Virus record (IMG/VR): IMGVR_UViG_3300009124_000117
Coordinates: 1 to 21,682 of that record
Direction: 5' to 3' (one strand)
Source of the DNA: a virus
Length of the DNA stretch: 21,682 nucleotides
In this document: one piece after another, positions 5,765 to 18,263 of the stretch
Layout: every line of letters starts with the position of its first letter
Position numbering within the stretch: the first letter of the stretch is position 1
Made by a program: the position numbers and the translations under genes
Notes under the pieces: generated by a model
What the model saw: the letters and a program-made list of their open reading frames with translations, nothing else
Told to the model about the DNA's origin: nothing
Database searches by the model: none

Positions 5765-5791
5765 AAGAGGGGGGCTTAGTTGCCCCCCTTT
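5765..5791. terminator. Bidirectional rho-independent terminator between convergent arms
   Basis: AGGGGGGC (5768-5775), loop TTAGTT (5776-5781) and GCCCCCCT (5782-5789) form an 8-bp, very GC-rich stem that a G-T and an A-T pair extend. The plus-strand transcript leaves it through TTTCT. The minus-strand transcript leaves it through CTTTTTA. It starts two bases after the stop of the 1165-aa virion gene and ends five bases from the stop of the last minus-strand gene, so it should stop transcription from both sides. Confidence 0.92.
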
Positions 5792-5795
5792 CTAG

Positions 5796-6005
5796 TTATT
5801 TAACACCGTGTACTTTGGCTGCATTACTACACCAGAGAACGGCTTCTTTCAGAGCCTTGATAGCGTACTCTTTTTCATCAGAACCGTGCAGGTTATTGTC
5901 TATATGTACTAGCATCTCATAGTACTTTACATCAAGCTCATCAATAAACTGCTCTTGCTTCATCCGAATGAAACGCTTAGCTTCTTCTTCTATACTAAAT
6001 CCCAT
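5796..6005 (-). CDS. Acb2/Tad1-like helical-hairpin protein (candidate anti-CBASS/anti-Thoeris sponge)
   Basis: A 69-aa acidic, all-helical protein: helix about residues 5-38, a short His-Gly-Ser-Asp turn at 40-43, then a second helix at 44-66. The second helix reads EKEYAIKALKEAVLWCSNAA. This is close to the signature of the Acb2/Tad1 hairpin family as I remember it, where a Lys/Leu-rich helix ends in E-A-V-M/L-W-x-x-x-A-A/I. Acb2 is known to bind cyclic di- and trinucleotides and so block CBASS; Tad1 sequesters the Thoeris signal gcADPR. The match here is by eye and confined to the C-terminal helix, so the function is inference. The gene is last in its arm, with a GGAG Shine-Dalgarno and a private sigma70 promoter about 30 bases upstream. 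It therefore may be expressed strongly and independently, as expected for a counter-defence gene. Confidence 0.6.
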   Translation of the reverse strand: MGFSIEEEAKRFIRMKQEQFIDELDVKYYEMLVHIDNNLHGSDEKEYAIKALKEAVLWCSNAAKVHGVK

Positions 6006-6035
6006 ACTAACTCCAGTGCTGGGGGATGTGCGTGT

Positions 6036-6064
6036 AGTTTACCATAAGTACTACACACTGTCAA
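6036..6064 (-). promoter_or_regulatory. Sigma70-type promoter for the 69-aa Acb2-like gene
   Basis: On the minus strand, TTGACA (6059-6064) is a perfect -35 box. A 17-base spacer follows, then TAAACT (6036-6041), which matches TATAAT at four of six positions. It begins five bases after the stop of the DUF3310 gene, in one of the few real gaps of this arm (6006-6067). The only gene between it and the terminator is the 69-aa ORF. Confidence 0.75.
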
Positions 6065-6067
6065 CAA

Positions 6068-6295
6068 CTAATTGTGTGTTTCTACCCAGCGCTTTCGCAT
6101 TCGATGGAGATACCAGATAGCTTTGTCGATGTCCTCTAAGCCATTTTTGTATTCGCACCGCCACATATACTTCAGTACGTTAGCTGCCTGTGGTGCTATA
6201 GCGCCTGACATATTCTCAGTCATAGCTTCTATAGCGTCAATGCATTCGATACCACTCTGGTTGTAGTGCACTGGTTTATTTACTGGATCGTTCAC
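6068..6295 (-). CDS. DUF3310 (SaV-like) phage protein
   Basis: 75 aa. The sequence has the family pattern: KPVHY near residues 7-11, GIECIDAIEAM at 15-25, then N-V-L-K-Y-M-W-R, a K-x-G-x-x-D-I-x-K-A stretch and W-Y-L-H. DUF3310 proteins are common in phages of many bacteria and sit near nucleotide-metabolism genes. Their biochemical role is not established. The start is GTG at 6295 with a GGAG Shine-Dalgarno seven bases upstream, inside the 3' end of the endonuclease VII-type gene, so the two genes overlap by 20 bases and are probably translationally coupled. Confidence 0.88.
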   Translation of the reverse strand: MNDPVNKPVHYNQSGIECIDAIEAMTENMSGAIAPQAANVLKYMWRCEYKNGLEDIDKAIWYLHRMRKRWVETHN

Positions 6296-6680
6296 GTATA
6301 TACTCCGCTTGCTTGATTAACTTCTCAGGGTCATCGTTAGACTTGCCCATACTGTGATTACATCCTTCGCATACATAACCCCTGAACTTACCTGTAGCGT
6401 GATCGTGGTCTAAGCACAGAACTTCTGGTATATCCCCACAAGCCTGACACTTACCGTCTTTAGGTTTAGGGTGTAGCTTCTTTAATGTATTTACAAGCTT
6501 ACCCATTTCACTCGTACAGCTTTTACATTGATTGCCGTATACACGATGTCCACCTTTCCTGAAGTAGATAGTGCGAAACTTATATTCAGGTTTTACCTCG
6601 TTACATATACTGCAGCACTTATGTGCTTCATCTATGTTAGGTTTGTTCTCTACAGTTTCATTGAACAGGTCTAGCTGCAT
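6276..6680 (-). CDS. Recombination endonuclease VII-type (HNH, zinc-binding) nuclease
   Basis: 134 aa. The C-terminal half has the T4 gp49 fold signature: CQAC at residues 78-81, then L-D-H-D-H (90-94), G-K-F-R-G, then CEGCN at 104-108. The four cysteines bind structural zinc, and D91/H92/D93/H94 with N108 form the His-Me (HNH) active site. The N-terminal half carries a second possible zinc ribbon, C23xxC26 and C52xxC55, not found in T4 endonuclease VII. The family cleaves Holliday junctions and branched DNA and can trim DNA before packaging. A homing-type HNH nuclease is a possible alternative, but the G-K-x-R-G...C-x-x-C-N arrangement favours endonuclease VII. It overlaps the glutaredoxin gene by 23 bases, and its Shine-Dalgarno is weak. 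Confidence 0.85.
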   Translation of the reverse strand: MQLDLFNETVENKPNIDEAHKCCSICNEVKPEYKFRTIYFRKGGHRVYGNQCKSCTSEMGKLVNTLKKLHPKPKDGKCQACGDIPEVLCLDHDHATGKFRGYVCEGCNHSMGKSNDDPEKLIKQAEYIRERSSK

Positions 6681-6906
6681 TAGATTCCAACCAATCTTTT
6701 AGCTCACGATAACCACCAATGTAGCTACCATTCTCGTTAAACACTTGTGGTACAGTTGTGATACTCGAATGTTTAAGTATGTACAACAGCCACGCACTAG
6801 TCTCTTCTTGTATGTTATACTCGACGTATTCTTTGTTGGCTCCTTCTAGTAGTGCCTTAGCTTGATCACAAAAGTTACACTGGTTACGACTGATGATTGT
6901 GTACAT
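6658..6906 (-). CDS. Glutaredoxin
   Basis: 82 aa from the ATG at 6906, chosen because GGAG lies five bases upstream. A longer in-frame start at 6927 has no ribosome site. The protein has a CNFC dithiol active site at residues 10-13, the cis-proline TVP at 51-53 and the GGYREL motif at 64-69, which is the full glutaredoxin core with normal length. Glutaredoxins pass electrons from glutathione to ribonucleotide reductase. The gene lies two genes downstream of the class II RNR, whose C-terminal cysteine pair needs re-reduction, so the RNR is its probable partner. Its start overlaps the 3' end of the DUF1289 gene by 23 bases. Confidence 0.92.
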   Translation of the reverse strand: MYTIISRNQCNFCDQAKALLEGANKEYVEYNIQEETSAWLLYILKHSSITTVPQVFNENGSYIGGYRELKDWLESNAARPVQ

Positions 6907-7084
6907 CTTGTCTCCATTTAAGTTCAAACAATAGTTTCCGTTGCTCGTAGTCAGACATTATCATCCAATCACGTATCTCATCTACTGTGCGCATACACCC
7001 TGCGCAGTATCCATCATCACGTATACGACAGACCTTTACGCAGGGCGATGGTGTAGTTCCTAAGTTAGGTCTACGATTTCGCAC
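6884..7084 (-). CDS. DUF1289 small four-cysteine protein
   Basis: 66 aa. SPCVKVC (C15, C19) and YCAGC (C27, C30), followed by R-T-x-D-E-I and a W...M-S-D-Y-E-Q-R-K-L-L tail, is the DUF1289 pattern seen in proteobacterial and marine phage genomes. The four cysteines could bind zinc or an Fe-S cluster; function is unknown. The only plausible start is GTG at 7084, inside the RNR gene, with an AGGTGA-like ribosome site close upstream; no other ATG, GTG or TTG precedes the first cysteine. It overlaps RNR by 25 bases and glutaredoxin by 23, and this position between the two suggests a role in their redox chemistry (inference). Confidence 0.82.
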   Translation of the reverse strand: MRNRRPNLGTTPSPCVKVCRIRDDGYCAGCMRTVDEIRDWMIMSDYEQRKLLFELKWRQDVHNHQS

Positions 7085-10237: not shown

Positions 10238-11084
10238 CTCCTATAAACACATAGTCTACCATAGGTTTCTCTGCAGCCTGTGATACACGTGATGGCTCAG
10301 TCTTCATATTAGGCCAACACTTATGTTTGTATGAACAGAACTTACACGCAGAGTTAAGCACAAGATTACCTGACGCTTTCTTACGATACGTTTCAGGTAC
10401 TGCATCAAAGCAACGCTTGAATGGTTGATCAGACTGTATATACTCTACCGTCTTTTCAATCTTCTGTAGTTGCTCATCAACGTTAACATTACCAGCGTCA
10501 ACATACTTGAACTCCCCATTAGCTTTGTTGACTACCCACCAACCGCCAACATCTTTGTCGGCTGCTGTAGCGTAACCTACAAGTTGACTTACATAGCCAA
10601 AGCTATCGCCTTGTGCTAGTGTTTCAAAGTCCTTGAACTTATTCTTGTATGACCAAGGTGATGCAGACTTAACATCATCCACCTTACCATCAAGAACCAT
10701 ATCGTACTCACCTTGTATCTCTGTACCGTCAGACAGAGTGAGTACAACCTTTTCATTATCCGTAAACTCTACATCAGCAGCACGAAGTAATCCTTTGAAA
10801 ACCGCTTCCACAATATCACCTAGCATCATATTAACTAGGAAGTGTGGGGGCAGTGGTGTTTTATCTTCAGGATCGTTCTTCTCGAACCACAGCTGACAAG
10901 TCGGACGCCCAAGATTGGACATCCGTAGTTTAAACTTGTCACGTGGACCGCTGCTGAACTGCTTACGTACAGCATCCGCTACGTCTTTACCTACCTGTTC
11001 AATCACAGCTTCATCAACTGTAGTCTCACCTGCAAGTGCTTTCTGTAGGAATGTGTGTAAGGCTAGCTCAGCTGTGTGGTTCAT
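10212..11084 (-). CDS. Cas4/RecB-like PD-(D/E)XK exonuclease with predicted Fe-S cluster
   Basis: 290 aa. The nuclease motif is GEYDMVLDGKVDDVKS (D128 and D137-x-K139), followed by Q167 and Y171 in SQLVGYA, the Q-x-x-x-Y motif of RecB-family nucleases. Four cysteines, C63 and the C-terminal C247-x2-C250-x5-C256, follow the Cas4/AddB layout that holds a 4Fe-4S cluster. In T7-like marine phages such a protein takes the place of the gp6 exonuclease, degrading host DNA and processing ends for recombination. The start ATG overlaps the upstream stop (ATGA), with GAGGT nine bases upstream. An alternative is a Cas4-like 5'-3' exonuclease used mainly in recombination; the sequence does not decide polarity. 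Confidence 0.85.
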   Translation of the reverse strand: MNHTAELALHTFLQKALAGETTVDEAVIEQVGKDVADAVRKQFSSGPRDKFKLRMSNLGRPTCQLWFEKNDPEDKTPLPPHFLVNMMLGDIVEAVFKGLLRAADVEFTDNEKVVLTLSDGTEIQGEYDMVLDGKVDDVKSASPWSYKNKFKDFETLAQGDSFGYVSQLVGYATAADKDVGGWWVVNKANGEFKYVDAGNVNVDEQLQKIEKTVEYIQSDQPFKRCFDAVPETYRKKASGNLVLNSACKFCSYKHKCWPNMKTEPSRVSQAAEKPMVDYVFIGDELASEET

Positions 11085-11962
11085 TCTGCAGCTACCTCAA
11101 CGTCTACGATATCGTTGATCACAGCTTCAGCTTTAGCTGACATACTACCACCGTTACGCTCTTCGTGCTGGTCATTGATGTAACCATTCATCCCTGCGAT
11201 CCAATCCATAAAGCTATCCAAGATGTCTTTGTCTGACTCGTCTAGCTCGTGCTTGTCTTCAAGGTCAAGCGTGAATGTAGCATACTCACTACCGTTAGGC
11301 ATACTGTGTAGCTCTGCACCTAGTGTAAGGTAGTACTGCAGAGGCAGTGCATTCTTACGCTCAATCTTCTTGAGTGCATCGTCAATAGCCTTGATAGAAC
11401 CACGGCTCTTCACATCCAACACAAAAGGAATCTCTTGTGCTGTGATAGCTGGATCATCAATAGGATTACCCTGATCATCCATAGCACCCTGCATAACTAC
11501 AGTACCGAAGACTACCTTAGTGCGCTTAGTGTCACGCATAAGTTGCTGTGTCTCTTTAGGTAGAGACTTGAAGTCCTCGACATAACCAGAGGGTCGGCCT
11601 GCATTGAAGCCACCTGTGTTGTCCTTCAGGTCACCATTCAAGTTGTTAACGAGAACAGTCTTGATCATCTCGTTAGCTTGTGAATCCCAACGTGTCCACT
11701 GCTGGCGCTGGGCGAAGATGCGAACCTTGGGTTCCATAGCGTACACAACCTTGTCGTCTGATTGTGTTAGCTTGTATGCACCAGCTGGGATGGCATCGAC
11801 TTTAACTGTCTTACCGTTGACTTCGATCTCACCTTTGATAGGCGAATGGATTTGACTGAACCGTGGTAGCATTGAACGCTTACCGCTTGAGTTCTCAGCC
11901 AGGCCCATCATCTCTGCCAATGATTTACCTTCTGTAGCCAGTGCGATTTGATTGTTACTCAT
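11081..11962 (-). CDS. Putative ssDNA-binding / recombination-associated protein
   Basis: 293 aa from the ATG at 11962, preferred over an in-frame GTG at 11977 because AAAGGA sits six bases before the ATG and would lie inside the longer reading frame. The protein looks like a beta-rich middle (residues about 40-215) with acidic, helical C-terminal parts (DKHELDESDKDILDSF) ending in an acidic tail, a layout found in phage ssDNA-binding proteins such as T7 gp2.5. Its place between polymerase and exonuclease, directly behind a strong promoter, also suits a DNA-binding protein needed in quantity. I see no diagnostic motif, so the function is inference. A generic recombination accessory protein is the main alternative. 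Confidence 0.55.
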   Translation of the reverse strand: MSNNQIALATEGKSLAEMMGLAENSSGKRSMLPRFSQIHSPIKGEIEVNGKTVKVDAIPAGAYKLTQSDDKVVYAMEPKVRIFAQRQQWTRWDSQANEMIKTVLVNNLNGDLKDNTGGFNAGRPSGYVEDFKSLPKETQQLMRDTKRTKVVFGTVVMQGAMDDQGNPIDDPAITAQEIPFVLDVKSRGSIKAIDDALKKIERKNALPLQYYLTLGAELHSMPNGSEYATFTLDLEDKHELDESDKDILDSFMDWIAGMNGYINDQHEERNGGSMSAKAEAVINDIVDVEVAAE

Positions 11963-12002
11963 TGTGTATCCTTTCACATTTACACAGTTTCAAAGAGTCG
12001 TA

Positions 12003-12031
12003 GTTATAGCACTAAACATCTTTTGTGTCAA
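12003..12031 (-). promoter_or_regulatory. Near-consensus sigma70 promoter inside/after the polymerase gene
   Basis: On the minus strand, TTGACA (12026-12031) lies in the last codons of the polymerase gene, followed by a 17-base spacer and TATAAC (12003-12008), five of six matches to TATAAT. The start point would be near 11996. That leaves a leader of about 30 bases before the AAAGGA and ATG of the 293-aa gene. It would launch the ssDNA-binding/exonuclease/endonuclease I/MazG/RNR block independently of the upstream promoter. Confidence 0.8.
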
Positions 12032-14060
12032 GCCAATTCGGACCGATTTTTGCTTCTAATAATAGAGGCACATTCATCTCTACTCCGTAGGCTTCTTCGA
12101 TGATAGTGTTAAGATCGTCGTTCAGTGTGTTTATCATAGCAATGACGTACTCCTTCTCGTCTGGGTGGATATCTATTACAGCTGAGTCGTGCACTGTGTT
12201 GACTAAGCAGGACTGCAAACCCTTGAGCCTCTCCTCAATCTCCATCAGTACAACTGGGACCACATCACCAGTAGCAAAGCCTTGCACTGGGTAGTTCTTG
12301 ATGTTGGTCATATGACTCACGCTGCCATTCTCTCTACGCTTACAGTCAGGGAATGCGTACTGCCTGCCACTGACGTTAGTAATCTTCAAGAGGTTAACTG
12401 CTTCCTTGGCTAGCTTCTTGTGCCACTTAGCTACGCCTTTGTACTTCTCTGTGAAGTGTTCATAATACGCTGCGACAGCTTTGGGTCTTCCATAACCAGT
12501 CGCGCCAAAGAGGGGTGCGAAGGTGTGCTCCTTAGCTTCTTGGCGTGTCGTTGGCTGACCTGCATCAGTGATAACTTGCGCCGTGTAGCTGTGCACGTCG
12601 AAGCCTGTGGCAATCTCTTGCATTGCAGTCTCGTCCTGTGCAAGGAACGCTGCCGTTCTAAATTCAAGCTGGGCAAAGTCGGCCTCCATTACGTAGCCAC
12701 CATCGAAGCGAGACACGAAGACCTTCTTGATAGGGAACGTGTTGCCTCGTGGCATATTCTGCATATTAGGGTTACGTCCACTGAACCGTCCAGTAGCTGC
12801 AGTAGTCTGTGATAGATCGACGTGCAGCATATCGTCAGGCTTAGTGAACAAACTGATACCACCTACAAAGTTATTCAGGTAGCTAGTGATAGCGTTGAGC
12901 CTACGTAGATCAGCTAGGAAAGCCTCAGCCTCTAGCATACCCTTTGATCTAGCTGTAGCGATAAGCACATCAAGGTTACCTTTGGATGTAGAGAACCCAC
13001 TGTCGCTAACCCAGTCCTTGTTAGGTGGGAAGAAGTTTAGACCTGCCACTTGGTTAGTCTCTTCTAGTTTGTACCCACGTGCTTCACAGTCCTTGCACTT
13101 GTTAGGCTTAGCGTAGCGTGTGCCATCCTTCTTTATCTTGTACGTATGCCCAGCGCCGTTGCACGTAGGACACGTGTACGCCTTAGTCTTCATCACGTGA
13201 GAAGAGTTAGCCTTGACTGTGGAACGATACTCGTCAACTGTATTGACGTGCTCGAATAGTGCAGCCCATTCCTTCTTGTTGTGTGGCTTCTTGCTGTAGA
13301 TGACTTGGGACTTCTGCTCAGGTGATGACATATTGATAGGTGTGTCACCCATCAGGTCACGTACCTTAGCGTTGATACGTGTCTCTAGTTCTACCTTCTC
13401 TTGCTCGAACTCTTCACGTACCTGCTCTAGTGCATCACGATCTACCTTGAACCCACGCTGATACATACGACACAGAGTCATACATACCTTCATACTAATG
13501 TCACGTACACGTATCATTGACTTACTCTCTGGCTGTGAGAAGTCGTGCTCCTGTGCTAAGAACAATTCACGTGTAACATTCAAGTCACCTACAAGATACT
13601 CTGTAAGTTCAGCCAGAGGTATCTCGTCTGTGTTGTAACCTTTCTTGTAGTACTCTTTGAGTGTGTCTAGTTTGTATGATGGTAAGTTACGCACCTCAGC
13701 ACAATGACCCAGACCCAACCCTCGCTTGACCCCACGCAGTAGCAGGTACTCGCCAATCATTGTGTCATAGATCAAGCCATCATACTTGAAGCCTGACTCC
13801 CATAGCCAAGGCATATCGTGTCGTGCGTTGTGCATAATCAACAGGGTTGTCTCGTCGAGCACAGCCTGCAGTACAAATGCAGCACCGCCTGTTGTGTCTT
13901 TAGCCTCAGTGTGATCGAAGTTAAGGATGTGCATCTCATCCGTGTTGTCCACGTTGAGTGTGCCTACCTGTACCAGGGTGTTGCCTGGTTGCCAAGGATC
14001 AAGCACCATCTTGCCATCAATCTTCTGGGTATTGTTTTCTACGTCTAGTACTGTCCTCAC
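12012..14060 (-). CDS. polA: Family A DNA polymerase with 3'-5' exonuclease and a zinc-knuckle insertion
   Basis: 682 aa, T7 gp5-type. Exonuclease residues are intact: D6 and E8 (LDVEN), D82 (NARHD), and Y155/D159 (YLVGD). Polymerase motif A is MEADFAQLEFR (D461). The O-helix is R506-x3-K510-x3-F514, giving phenylalanine at the position equivalent to E. coli F762. Motif C is VHDS at 623-626, with Ser where most family members have Glu. Residues 297-330 hold an extra CPTCNGAG...CKDCEARGY unit like one DnaJ zinc repeat. The start is GTG at 14060 with AGGAG six bases upstream, the best ribosome site available. The gene follows the helicase with a 13-base gap. It copies the phage genome and probably needs a host processivity factor or none; no thioredoxin-binding loop can be identified by eye. 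Confidence 0.95.
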   Translation of the reverse strand: MRTVLDVENNTQKIDGKMVLDPWQPGNTLVQVGTLNVDNTDEMHILNFDHTEAKDTTGGAAFVLQAVLDETTLLIMHNARHDMPWLWESGFKYDGLIYDTMIGEYLLLRGVKRGLGLGHCAEVRNLPSYKLDTLKEYYKKGYNTDEIPLAELTEYLVGDLNVTRELFLAQEHDFSQPESKSMIRVRDISMKVCMTLCRMYQRGFKVDRDALEQVREEFEQEKVELETRINAKVRDLMGDTPINMSSPEQKSQVIYSKKPHNKKEWAALFEHVNTVDEYRSTVKANSSHVMKTKAYTCPTCNGAGHTYKIKKDGTRYAKPNKCKDCEARGYKLEETNQVAGLNFFPPNKDWVSDSGFSTSKGNLDVLIATARSKGMLEAEAFLADLRRLNAITSYLNNFVGGISLFTKPDDMLHVDLSQTTAATGRFSGRNPNMQNMPRGNTFPIKKVFVSRFDGGYVMEADFAQLEFRTAAFLAQDETAMQEIATGFDVHSYTAQVITDAGQPTTRQEAKEHTFAPLFGATGYGRPKAVAAYYEHFTEKYKGVAKWHKKLAKEAVNLLKITNVSGRQYAFPDCKRRENGSVSHMTNIKNYPVQGFATGDVVPVVLMEIEERLKGLQSCLVNTVHDSAVIDIHPDEKEYVIAMINTLNDDLNTIIEEAYGVEMNVPLLLEAKIGPNWLDTKDV

Positions 14061-16316: not shown

Positions 16317-17104
16317 TATAGCATCTCCTTTAGTCTCATTATATCATCTTGTACACCATACTTGATGTCGTCGTCAAGTAGTAATGCTCTTGTAGGTAGG
16401 CCAGTCCATAGCTCTACCTCTCGCTTGTATTGCAAGGTCTTGTGTGTAGCGTCCCTGTCTAACGCTATAACTACCTCACGAAACTCACCCAAGTGTTTCA
16501 TTATTGTAACATTAAGTGATGTACCTAGTATGGCAAACCCTACTGCGCTGGGTGCAAAGTGTGACACTTTTATCGCACTTATCACATCCTCAACTACTAC
16601 AGCTACATCTGCATCAGGGTTCACTCGCTTAGTAAAGAAGTCAGCCTGGCCTGAGTAGCGATACCATTTAGGTACAGCACCATCAAGCGCACGGCCTACA
16701 GCATCCAGTAGCCTACCGTTGTAGTGGATAGGGAACACAGCACGTCTGTCCTTCACGTCATACATCAAGCCCTCGTGATGCAGGTCATACTGATCGACAA
16801 ACTTCTGTAACAAAACGTGATCAGAAGTAGGCTGCACTACATATTCTGGATAAACTAAGGTCTGTAACTCTTTGTTTTCATTAGTGTTTCTAGGCTTAGC
16901 CATACGCAGTTTGAGTTCCTCAACAGTCATATCTGTAGAGTATGCACCCTTGAGTGAGCAGCTAAGCTTGAAGCAGTTGTACACGTAGTCACCCCCATCC
17001 TTGTAGCAGGTGAAGGTGTTACGTGATCTGCAGCTTGGGCAGTCAAGGCGTAGGGAATCCCCATCCTTTAAGTTAAGTGTATCTAGGAAGCCTCTGATAT
17101 TCAT
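16316..17104 (-). CDS. DNA primase, zinc-ribbon plus Toprim
   Basis: 262 aa. The N-terminal zinc ribbon has C22-x2-C25 and C44-x4-C49. The Toprim catalytic residues are E172 (VVEDVISAIK) and D216/D218 (VIALDRD). This is the primase half of T7 gp4 without a helicase domain, and the separate DnaB-type helicase is encoded three genes downstream. It should lay RNA primers at sites read by the zinc ribbon. The ATG at 17104 shares four bases with the integrase stop (ATGA), so it is translated in step with the recombinase. The length is slightly short of the T7 primase domain but has all core motifs. Confidence 0.92.
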   Translation of the reverse strand: MNIRGFLDTLNLKDGDSLRLDCPSCRSRNTFTCYKDGGDYVYNCFKLSCSLKGAYSTDMTVEELKLRMAKPRNTNENKELQTLVYPEYVVQPTSDHVLLQKFVDQYDLHHEGLMYDVKDRRAVFPIHYNGRLLDAVGRALDGAVPKWYRYSGQADFFTKRVNPDADVAVVVEDVISAIKVSHFAPSAVGFAILGTSLNVTIMKHLGEFREVVIALDRDATHKTLQYKREVELWTGLPTRALLLDDDIKYGVQDDIMRLKEML

Positions 17105-18030
17105 TCAGTAATTCCTTTGCGTTTAGCTAGTGCAGCTGATGCACCGCTGAATGTGTTGACTAGGTAAGGCTTAACACTGGCAGGGTTCTGGTGTCCACTC
17201 ACCTGCATAATACCTATGAGATCAACGCCTGCCTCTGCCATCTCAGTTATAGCTGTACGGCGTAGGTCACGTGCTTGTAAGTCAGGGTCAAGTCCTGCTG
17301 CATCCTTCACACGATTGACGTAGTTGTGTATGTCAGTCTCACTGTATGGGTTGTAGCTGCCACTCTTAGGCTTGACGTGTGGTGCTACGTAGGGTTGGAA
17401 ACCGAAGTCTTCCTTCTGTTGTTCGAGCATACGAAGTAACCCATCATCAATAGGCAGGTGTACCTCAGCCCCACGCTTAGACTGTGTAATGTCTACACGC
17501 TCTTGGTCTAAGTCGATAGCATCCCACTGTAGCAGACGCATATCACCAATACGTTGACCCCACTCGTATGACATATGTACGATCAGACCTATGCTTCTGG
17601 ACCACCACTGCGAGTACGCTGTGTCTAGGAACAGTTGCACATCCTCACGTGACCACATCACACGGCGAGGCTTGTCAGTCTTACGCTTGAGCAGGGACAC
17701 TGGGTTGTACAAGATAGCCTCGTGCCTACGTGCCAGGTTGAACACGATACTCAGGCACGAAGCATTGTAGTTAGCAGCACGAGGGCCACTATCGTTTAGC
17801 CACTTGTCGTATGCAAACGTCACGTGCTTGAGGCTGATCCTGTTGAGCTTCATCTCACCCATAGGTCTACCACCCTGCACGTAGGTGTTAGACACCATAG
17901 CTAGCCTTGTCTCGTACTGCTTCTGTGTTGGACCAGATAGCTCAGCAAACGCAGGGCTGTGCAAGTATGCATCGACTGCAACCTTGAGCTTGTCAGTACC
18001 TTTTAAGTCTAGCTGTTTACGCTTCACCAT
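17101..18030 (-). CDS. int: Tyrosine recombinase / integrase
   Basis: 309 aa from the ATG at 18030, with GAGG six bases upstream; a longer TTG start at 18069 lacks a site. A helical SAM-like core-binding domain (residues 1-115) precedes the catalytic domain. Catalytic residues are R160 (WGQRIGDMR), K185 (QSKRG), R257 (RDLRRT), H280 (SGHQN) and Y289 (KPYLVNT). The box II His is replaced by R254, a change found in other phage integrases. Such enzymes integrate phage DNA or resolve concatemers and dimers. No repressor, excisionase or tRNA-like attP core is visible nearby. It is co-transcribed with the primase and the replication genes, which is unusual for a lysogeny integrase. Confidence 0.92.
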   Translation of the reverse strand: MVKRKQLDLKGTDKLKVAVDAYLHSPAFAELSGPTQKQYETRLAMVSNTYVQGGRPMGEMKLNRISLKHVTFAYDKWLNDSGPRAANYNASCLSIVFNLARRHEAILYNPVSLLKRKTDKPRRVMWSREDVQLFLDTAYSQWWSRSIGLIVHMSYEWGQRIGDMRLLQWDAIDLDQERVDITQSKRGAEVHLPIDDGLLRMLEQQKEDFGFQPYVAPHVKPKSGSYNPYSETDIHNYVNRVKDAAGLDPDLQARDLRRTAITEMAEAGVDLIGIMQVSGHQNPASVKPYLVNTFSGASAALAKRKGITE

Positions 18031-18263
18031 TTCTTCCTCACTTTCCAGTATGCCCAACACTCTACACAATGTCCTTGCCCCAGCGCAAGATCAATAAAGT
18101 ATACGATGTTAGGTTTCTTTTCCTTCTGCCACTGGTAGTTCCTTGCGCTGAACGTCTGATTGTTTTGTCCTCCGAGGATTACGTTTATCAGTACGCTCAG
18201 TGCTGTCAGTACTCGGCTCAGGTAGATTGCCAACCCAGTGTGTAACATCGTCAGTCGGGTCAT
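18024..18263 (-). CDS. Possible overlapping small protein in an alternative frame (79 aa)
   Basis: From the ATG at 18263 (GGAG six bases upstream) this frame reads through the gap before the integrase and stops at a TGA three bases past the integrase ATG, the same overlap geometry used elsewhere in this operon. It has a hydrophobic stretch (L-A-I-Y-L-S-R-V-L-T-A-L-S-V-L) and a C-terminal C-V-E-C-W-A-Y-W segment ending in basic residues. It overlaps the 60-aa gene at 18109-18291 in a different frame for about 155 bases. In the shared part its codons (CTG, CGA, GGA) are less typical of this phage than those of the 60-aa frame. It may be a true overlapping gene, the tail of a +1 frameshift product, or chance. 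Confidence 0.35.
   Translation of the reverse strand: MTRLTMLHTGLAIYLSRVLTALSVLINVILGGQNNQTFSARNYQWQKEKKPNIVYFIDLALGQGHCVECWAYWKVRKKW

Follow-up and report, generated by a model that had tools for sequence, protein, structure and literature searches.

The gene that closes the minus-strand early arm of an HMO-2011-type marine phage encodes a 69-residue two-helix hairpin protein. Profile comparisons indicate that this protein is very probably a remote homologue of the Acb2/Tad1 hairpin superfamily, and its gene occurs as two old, constrained alleles that are being exchanged between phages. Our best explanation as a whole, which we hold to be about as probable as its opposite, is that the protein is a divergent, hairpin-only member of that superfamily that would act as a multimer and sequester a signalling nucleotide. 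If it is such a sponge, nucleotide-sequestering counter-defence extends to HMO-2011-type phages, where the gene is unannotated, and a hairpin that lacks the N-terminal regions used for ligand binding in Acb2 and Tad1 can be a functional unit. The analysis covered one stretch of viral DNA of 21,682 nucleotides (IMG/VR record IMGVR_UViG_3300009124_000117, positions 1 to 21,682), referred to here as the window.

A conserved gene at the end of the early arm

5796-6005, minus strand: gene for a two-helix hairpin protein, probable divergent relative of the Acb2/Tad1 hairpins (ORF, conserved family, profile-profile match, AlphaFold2 hairpin)
5967-6005, minus strand: first 13 codons, MGFSIEEEAKRFI, nearly constant across the allele swap, with divergence directly 3' (comparison of contigs L004 and L005)

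The earlier note had described a 69-residue last gene of the minus arm, and this description held. The ORF list gives a 69-codon gene with an ATG start and a GGAG 7 nt upstream, the product of which is MGFSIEEEAKRFIRMKQEQFIDELDVKYYEMLVHIDNNLHGSDEKEYAIKALKEAVLWCSNAAKVHGVK. The ORF is a real gene: homologues of about equal length were found at more than 80 viral loci (pattern and tblastn searches), its syntenic counterpart closes the early genes of CRP-2, CRP-603, and CRP-207 (tblastn, 36%–37% identity, same position), and dN/dS within an allele type is 0–0.08. In these three phages, the homologue is annotated as 'hypothetical protein'. Residues E6, E8, A9, F12, F20, N38, L39, L52, W58, and G67 are invariant in the family, and searches of plasmids and of species-representative genomes of bacteria and archaea returned no homologue.

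At E 1e-60, the window's DNA polymerase matches only HMO-2011-type phages and their kin (12 records, including CRP-603, CRP-2, CRP-207, HMO-2011, and HTVC033P), and the window was therefore assigned to an HMO-2011-type marine phage. Phages of this type have been described as a dominant marine group (PMC9038755). Upstream neighbours of the hairpin gene encode DUF3310 (6068-6295), endonuclease VII (6276-6680), DUF1289, MazG, and a family A DNA polymerase, and glutaredoxin and ribonucleotide reductase genes are also among its neighbours. The convergent gene across the terminator encodes 1165 aa.

Probable remote homology to the Acb2/Tad1 hairpins

5865-5894, minus strand: turn and start of helix 2 (codons 38-47), invariant N38-L39 followed by E44 in common with Acb2 hairpins (column comparison, alignment)
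5811-5876, minus strand: helix 2 (codons 44-65), with E44, A48, L52, and W58 in Acb2/Tad1 register and the Thr of the Acb2 signature replaced by Lys50 (profile comparison, columns)

Two kinds of phage sponge served as the reference. Acb2 (T4 Vs.4 and the PaMx33/PaP2 homologues) is a hexameric cyclic-nucleotide sponge that counters CBASS, and Tad1 (CbTad1, 7UAV/7UAW) is a sponge for gcADPR and cyclic nucleotides that counters Thoeris. To our knowledge, most Acb2/Tad1-hairpin proteins in databases are themselves without functional tests.

The HMM comparison with the Acb2/Tad1 family that the earlier note had proposed gave a divided answer. On its own, the window protein scored 14 bits against Pfam PF24729 (E 0.06; cut-off 27), behind a spurious match, and had no significant match in Pfam, PHROGs, NCBIfam, or the PDB. 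Among the records searched, the best match of any family member to PF24729 reached 17.6 bits and thus stayed below the cut-off, and a HMMER profile of the hairpin family alone retrieved nothing relevant from the PDB. Across the family, however, 14 of 22 members matched PF24729 (best E 0.0025) as against two of 22 for the next Pfam family, and 18 of 22 matched phrog_1454 in PHROGs (best 3.2e-6). Pfam-verified Acb2/Tad1 hairpins match phrog_1454 down to 3e-36, and by these matches phrog_1454 is a group of genuine Acb2/Tad1 hairpins. The top Pfam match of the window protein, T4_Rnl1_C, was rejected (matched by just one of the 22 members), and PF24729 matches of whole records at E ≤ 1 were discarded as proof, as 8 of 14 control genomes match at that level too.

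Profile-profile comparison gave the strongest signal. Reference Acb2/Tad1 hairpins were gathered with a sequence motif and then verified, and the hairpin family was not used for their selection. With hhalign, 23 family members aligned with 12 Acb2/Tad1-type hairpins at a probability of 95.2% (P 2.6e-8, score 42.3, 48 ungapped columns); this reference set includes a few members that are below the PF24729 cut-off or unchecked. An independent comparison with a nine-sequence reference alignment, in which eight of the nine phage proteins were confirmed above the PF24729 cut-off, gave 93.8%. Among controls, 200 column shuffles reached 16.3 at most and the reversed alignment 9. When 40 ORF families from all six frames of the same loci were compared with the Acb2/Tad1 profile, the hairpin family scored 41.8 and the next family 15.6.

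Positions in common with the Acb2/Tad1 hairpins are E44, A48, L52, and W58, together with the hydrophobic spacing of helix 1. The likeness of helix 2 to the Acb2/Tad1 signature, claimed in the earlier note, is partial: in R-E-x3-A-x-T-x-L-E-E-A-x-x-W, the family keeps these four residues, whereas Arg is replaced (mostly by D/E/S/T) and Thr by Lys. T4 Acb2 itself is without the R-E of the signature. T4 Vs.4 and the window protein, both small phage proteins with a two-helix hairpin, have the helix 2 register A-x3-L-x-E-A-x-M/L-W-A/C in common (IAKTKLKEASMWA in T4 Vs.4 versus YAIKALKEAVLWC). Likeness to the phrog_1454/PF24729 hairpin proteins of actinophages and Paenibacillus phages is at the level of profile homology across both helices. 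However, those proteins mostly carry an N-terminal F-x-Y/F-H-P and R-E-K-S-L-A-x-T-K-L-E-E-A-M, whereas the hairpin family starts with S-L-E-x-E-A-x-x-F.

Predicted structures agree with a hairpin, as the earlier note had read from the sequence. The AlphaFold2 monomer of the window protein consists of antiparallel helices at residues 5-38 and 44-66 (mean pLDDT 94), and a second family member from another clade has the same predicted fold (pLDDT 95). In a Foldseek search of 350,542 PDB chains, the window model placed T4 Acb2 with cGAMP (7UQ2) at rank 1 (E 0.93) and Tad1 at ranks 4-5, with non-significant E-values throughout (0.93–2.5). The second model gave a less specific list, with Tad1 at rank 16 and T4 Acb2 outside the top 50. 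In the viral library BFVD, ranks 3-8 were all Acb2/Tad1 hairpin proteins (E 0.2–0.5). Because the second model puts Tad1 only at rank 16, the first rank of T4 Acb2 in the PDB search is supportive, not decisive. A bare hairpin holds little structural information, and the sequence profiles are stronger evidence than structure.

The likeness might alternatively have arisen by convergence, in that an E-A-L-W pattern in any amphipathic helical hairpin would produce it without common descent. The insignificant single-sequence scores, the PDB Foldseek E-values above 0.7, and the differing lists of the two models are what such a reading would predict. However, the column-shuffled, reversed, and 39 other-family controls fell far below the observed profile score, the profile alignment is ungapped over 45–49 columns spanning both helices and the turn, and PF24729 and phrog_1454 dominate the matches. 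We consider convergence improbable and remote homology to the Acb2/Tad1 hairpin superfamily, as indicated by the profiles, very likely.

The family link proposed in the earlier note therefore stands as remote superfamily homology (profile probability 94%–95%) and not as membership of either known group. The window protein is not a canonical Acb2 or Tad1, and the names 'an Acb2' or 'a Tad1' are not established for it, since it falls below the Pfam cut-off, has none of the aromatics with which Acb2 binds dinucleotides, and is without the sheet domain of Tad1. In T4 Acb2, the binding of dinucleotides is disrupted when Tyr8 is mutated, and Phe82 makes a stacking contact with the ligand (PMC12657218). 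The window protein is shorter (69 versus 88 aa), the conserved Thr is replaced by Lys, and helix 1 starts at residue 5, leaving no N-terminal segment for the ligand-stacking Tyr8; the position of Phe82 is occupied by Lys64, and across the family mostly by R/K/E/S/D. Arg79 of T4 Acb2, three residues after the conserved Trp, presumably has a role in trinucleotide binding; this was not used as evidence. Tad1 has an N-terminal beta-sheet domain beside its C-terminal helices (review PMC12043709). Its C-terminal hairpin belongs to the same Pfam domain, PF24729, but the 69-aa model of the window protein is an all-helical hairpin alone. A literature search, with a scope excluding most subscription journals, found no report of Acb2 in HMO-2011-type phages.

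A promoter conserved within the clade

6036-6064, minus strand: sigma-70-type promoter, TTGACA-17-TAAACT (scan; 10 or more of the 12 consensus positions matched in 16/16 clade members and 0/12 distant homologues)
5768-5789, minus strand: bidirectional intrinsic terminator between convergent genes, 8-pair GC-rich stem and T run (scan; stem-loop kept in L004-L011)

The earlier note had placed the hairpin gene alone between a TTGACA-17-TAAACT promoter and the terminator, and both the site and this arrangement were recovered. The promoter (6064-6036) lies directly after the DUF3310 stop (6068), and the hairpin gene is the sole minus-strand gene between it and the terminator. A generic promoter scan of the window was not above chance (four sites versus 6.8 expected), but sites that match the consensus at 10 or more of its 12 positions are rare (three in the whole window, both strands). 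Such a site lies at the same place in all 16 clade sequences examined, including L033-L035, in which flanks and spacer have diverged. None was present upstream of the gene in 12 of 12 more distant homologues, in which the gene directly abuts its neighbour (with a 4-base overlap in CRP-2, for example). The promoter is therefore real and under selection in the clade, yet it is no defining trait of the hairpin family.

No terminator was found between the hairpin gene and the operon above it, so that transcription is possible both from the operon and from the gene's own promoter. The argument of the earlier note that a private promoter suits a counter-defence gene keeps its premise within the clade. 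As an argument it is weak, because in CRP-2, CRP-603, and CRP-207 the same gene is simply the last of the operon (the promoter was not found in the two scored, CRP-2 and CRP-207). A dyad-symmetric operator overlapping the promoter was considered and rejected as non-significant (shuffle P 0.06–0.59).

Exchange of divergent alleles between phages

5796-6005 of the window, 4001-4210 of L004, 2867-3076 of L005, and 2673-2882 of L010: hairpin gene alleles, divergent on near-identical backbones, with a shared terminator

Contigs L004 and L005 come from separate metagenomes. Upstream of the hairpin gene they differ at 1 of 2866 bases, within its coding sequence at 70 of 207, and downstream at 18 of about 400. 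Within the gene, the first 13 codons differ at one silent site and the remaining coding sequence at 69 sites. A second backbone repeats the pattern: the window and L010 are about 95% identical upstream and 62% identical in the coding sequence after codon 7. Moreover, the same alleles recur on backbones that differ upstream, namely one in the window and L004 (96% aa identity) and the other in L005 and L009 (zero differences). Given the low dN/dS within an allele type, a dS above 1 between types, and the occurrence of each allele on different backbones, the hairpin gene has two old, constrained alleles that are being exchanged between phages. Assembly chimerism is the main caveat on the swap, and recurrence on a second backbone argues against it. 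Such swapping fits a host-facing gene for which recombination brings in another version when the defence repertoire changes.

Close contigs also vary in the genes that they carry upstream, namely those for endonuclease VII, glutaredoxin, and DUF1289 (window 6300-7000 versus L004, L005, and L006), which suggests that the end of the early arm as a whole is prone to recombination.

These data also bear on whether the hairpin gene simply serves replication or nucleotide metabolism as the final gene of its operon, with the extra promoter only raising expression so far down a long operon. Its neighbours (DUF3310, endonuclease VII, glutaredoxin, and ribonucleotide reductase), the distant homologues without a promoter of their own, and the MazG gene at the same place in CRP-1, CRP-345, and HMO-2011 are in keeping with such a role. 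However, it is unusual for a housekeeping gene to be replaced, as seen here, by an allele of about 60% identity while the rest of the backbone stays identical, and MazG-type phage proteins have themselves been reported as counter-defence (Atd1, review PMC10419184). We regard the housekeeping role as highly improbable.

In CRP-1 (L014:4613-4993), CRP-345 (L015:3494-3856), CRP-13 (L016:3675-3926), and HMO-2011 (L114:701-1084), the last early gene encodes MazG or another small protein, the N-terminus of which resembles that of the hairpin family (L-E/K-x-E-A-x-x-F/Y/W). The pattern used to search the last genes of CRP-1, CRP-345, and CRP-13 was fitted to sequences already seen, and a profile of the hairpin family alone gave E 0.3–0.6 for two of these last early genes and nothing for the others. 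The resemblance hints, as a lead only, that the gene in this slot can be replaced in related phages while a stretch at the N-terminus is retained.

A possible nucleotide sponge

For the preferred reading of a hairpin-only sponge, support was computed as remote homology, the two-helix fold, the conserved promoter, and the swapped pair of divergent alleles, whereas we infer the multimer, the ligand, and the defence target. The gene, carried by HMO-2011-type phages of marine alphaproteobacteria, would be expressed early, both as part of the operon and through its own promoter. By analogy with Acb2 and Tad1, the hairpins may then assemble into a multimer that would sequester a small host signalling nucleotide, such that an abortive-infection effector stays off. 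Since the protein has no equivalent of the aromatic residues through which T4 Acb2 contacts cyclic dinucleotides, a dinucleotide bound in the manner of Acb2 would be a less likely ligand than a cyclic trinucleotide in the central channel of the trimer or some other nucleotide. In Acb2, the central channel at the trimer interface is an independent binding site for cyclic trinucleotides (PMC12043709), and a protein consisting of the hairpin alone might therefore bind them as well. We put the chance that the hairpin protein functions as a nucleotide sponge at around one half.

The protein might instead be an Acb2/Tad1 hairpin homologue that lost, or never had, nucleotide binding and serves another purpose, for instance as a scaffold made of small oligomers or by inhibiting a host protein. 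The ligand-contact aromatics are missing, the Arg/Thr signature is altered, and the conserved positions specific to the family (E6, E8, A9, F12, F20, N38-L39, and G67) differ from those of Acb2; moreover, the hairpin is the oligomerisation core in Acb2 and Tad1 and hence reusable. However, strong purifying selection and exchange between phages are as expected of a host-facing function, and Acb2 homologues are known to vary in the ligands that they bind (review PMC12043709), which makes altered contacts compatible with binding. A homologue without nucleotide binding is possible, if on the doubtful side.

A more specific version of the sponge reading is that the family forms a hairpin-only branch, with a pocket unlike the known Acb2 dinucleotide site, in which phages of the same genotype swap deeply divergent alleles between a shared promoter and N-terminus and a shared terminator so as to match the nucleotide alarm of the host. 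This version is rather unlikely as a complete account. With the natural allele pair on near-identical backbones, the purpose of the variation can readily be tested.

Other features of the window

A second near-consensus promoter, TTGACA-17-TATAAC (11 of 12 positions), lies at 12031-12003 on the minus strand, at the end of the DNA polymerase gene, and precedes a gene for 298 aa (11081-11977) without a Pfam match. The family A DNA polymerase (12012-14060, minus strand) carries a DnaJ-type CxxCxGxG zinc stretch at residues 291-333 that scores below the Pfam cut-off. A tyrosine recombinase (Phage_integrase, E 3e-20) is encoded at 17101-18069 on the minus strand.
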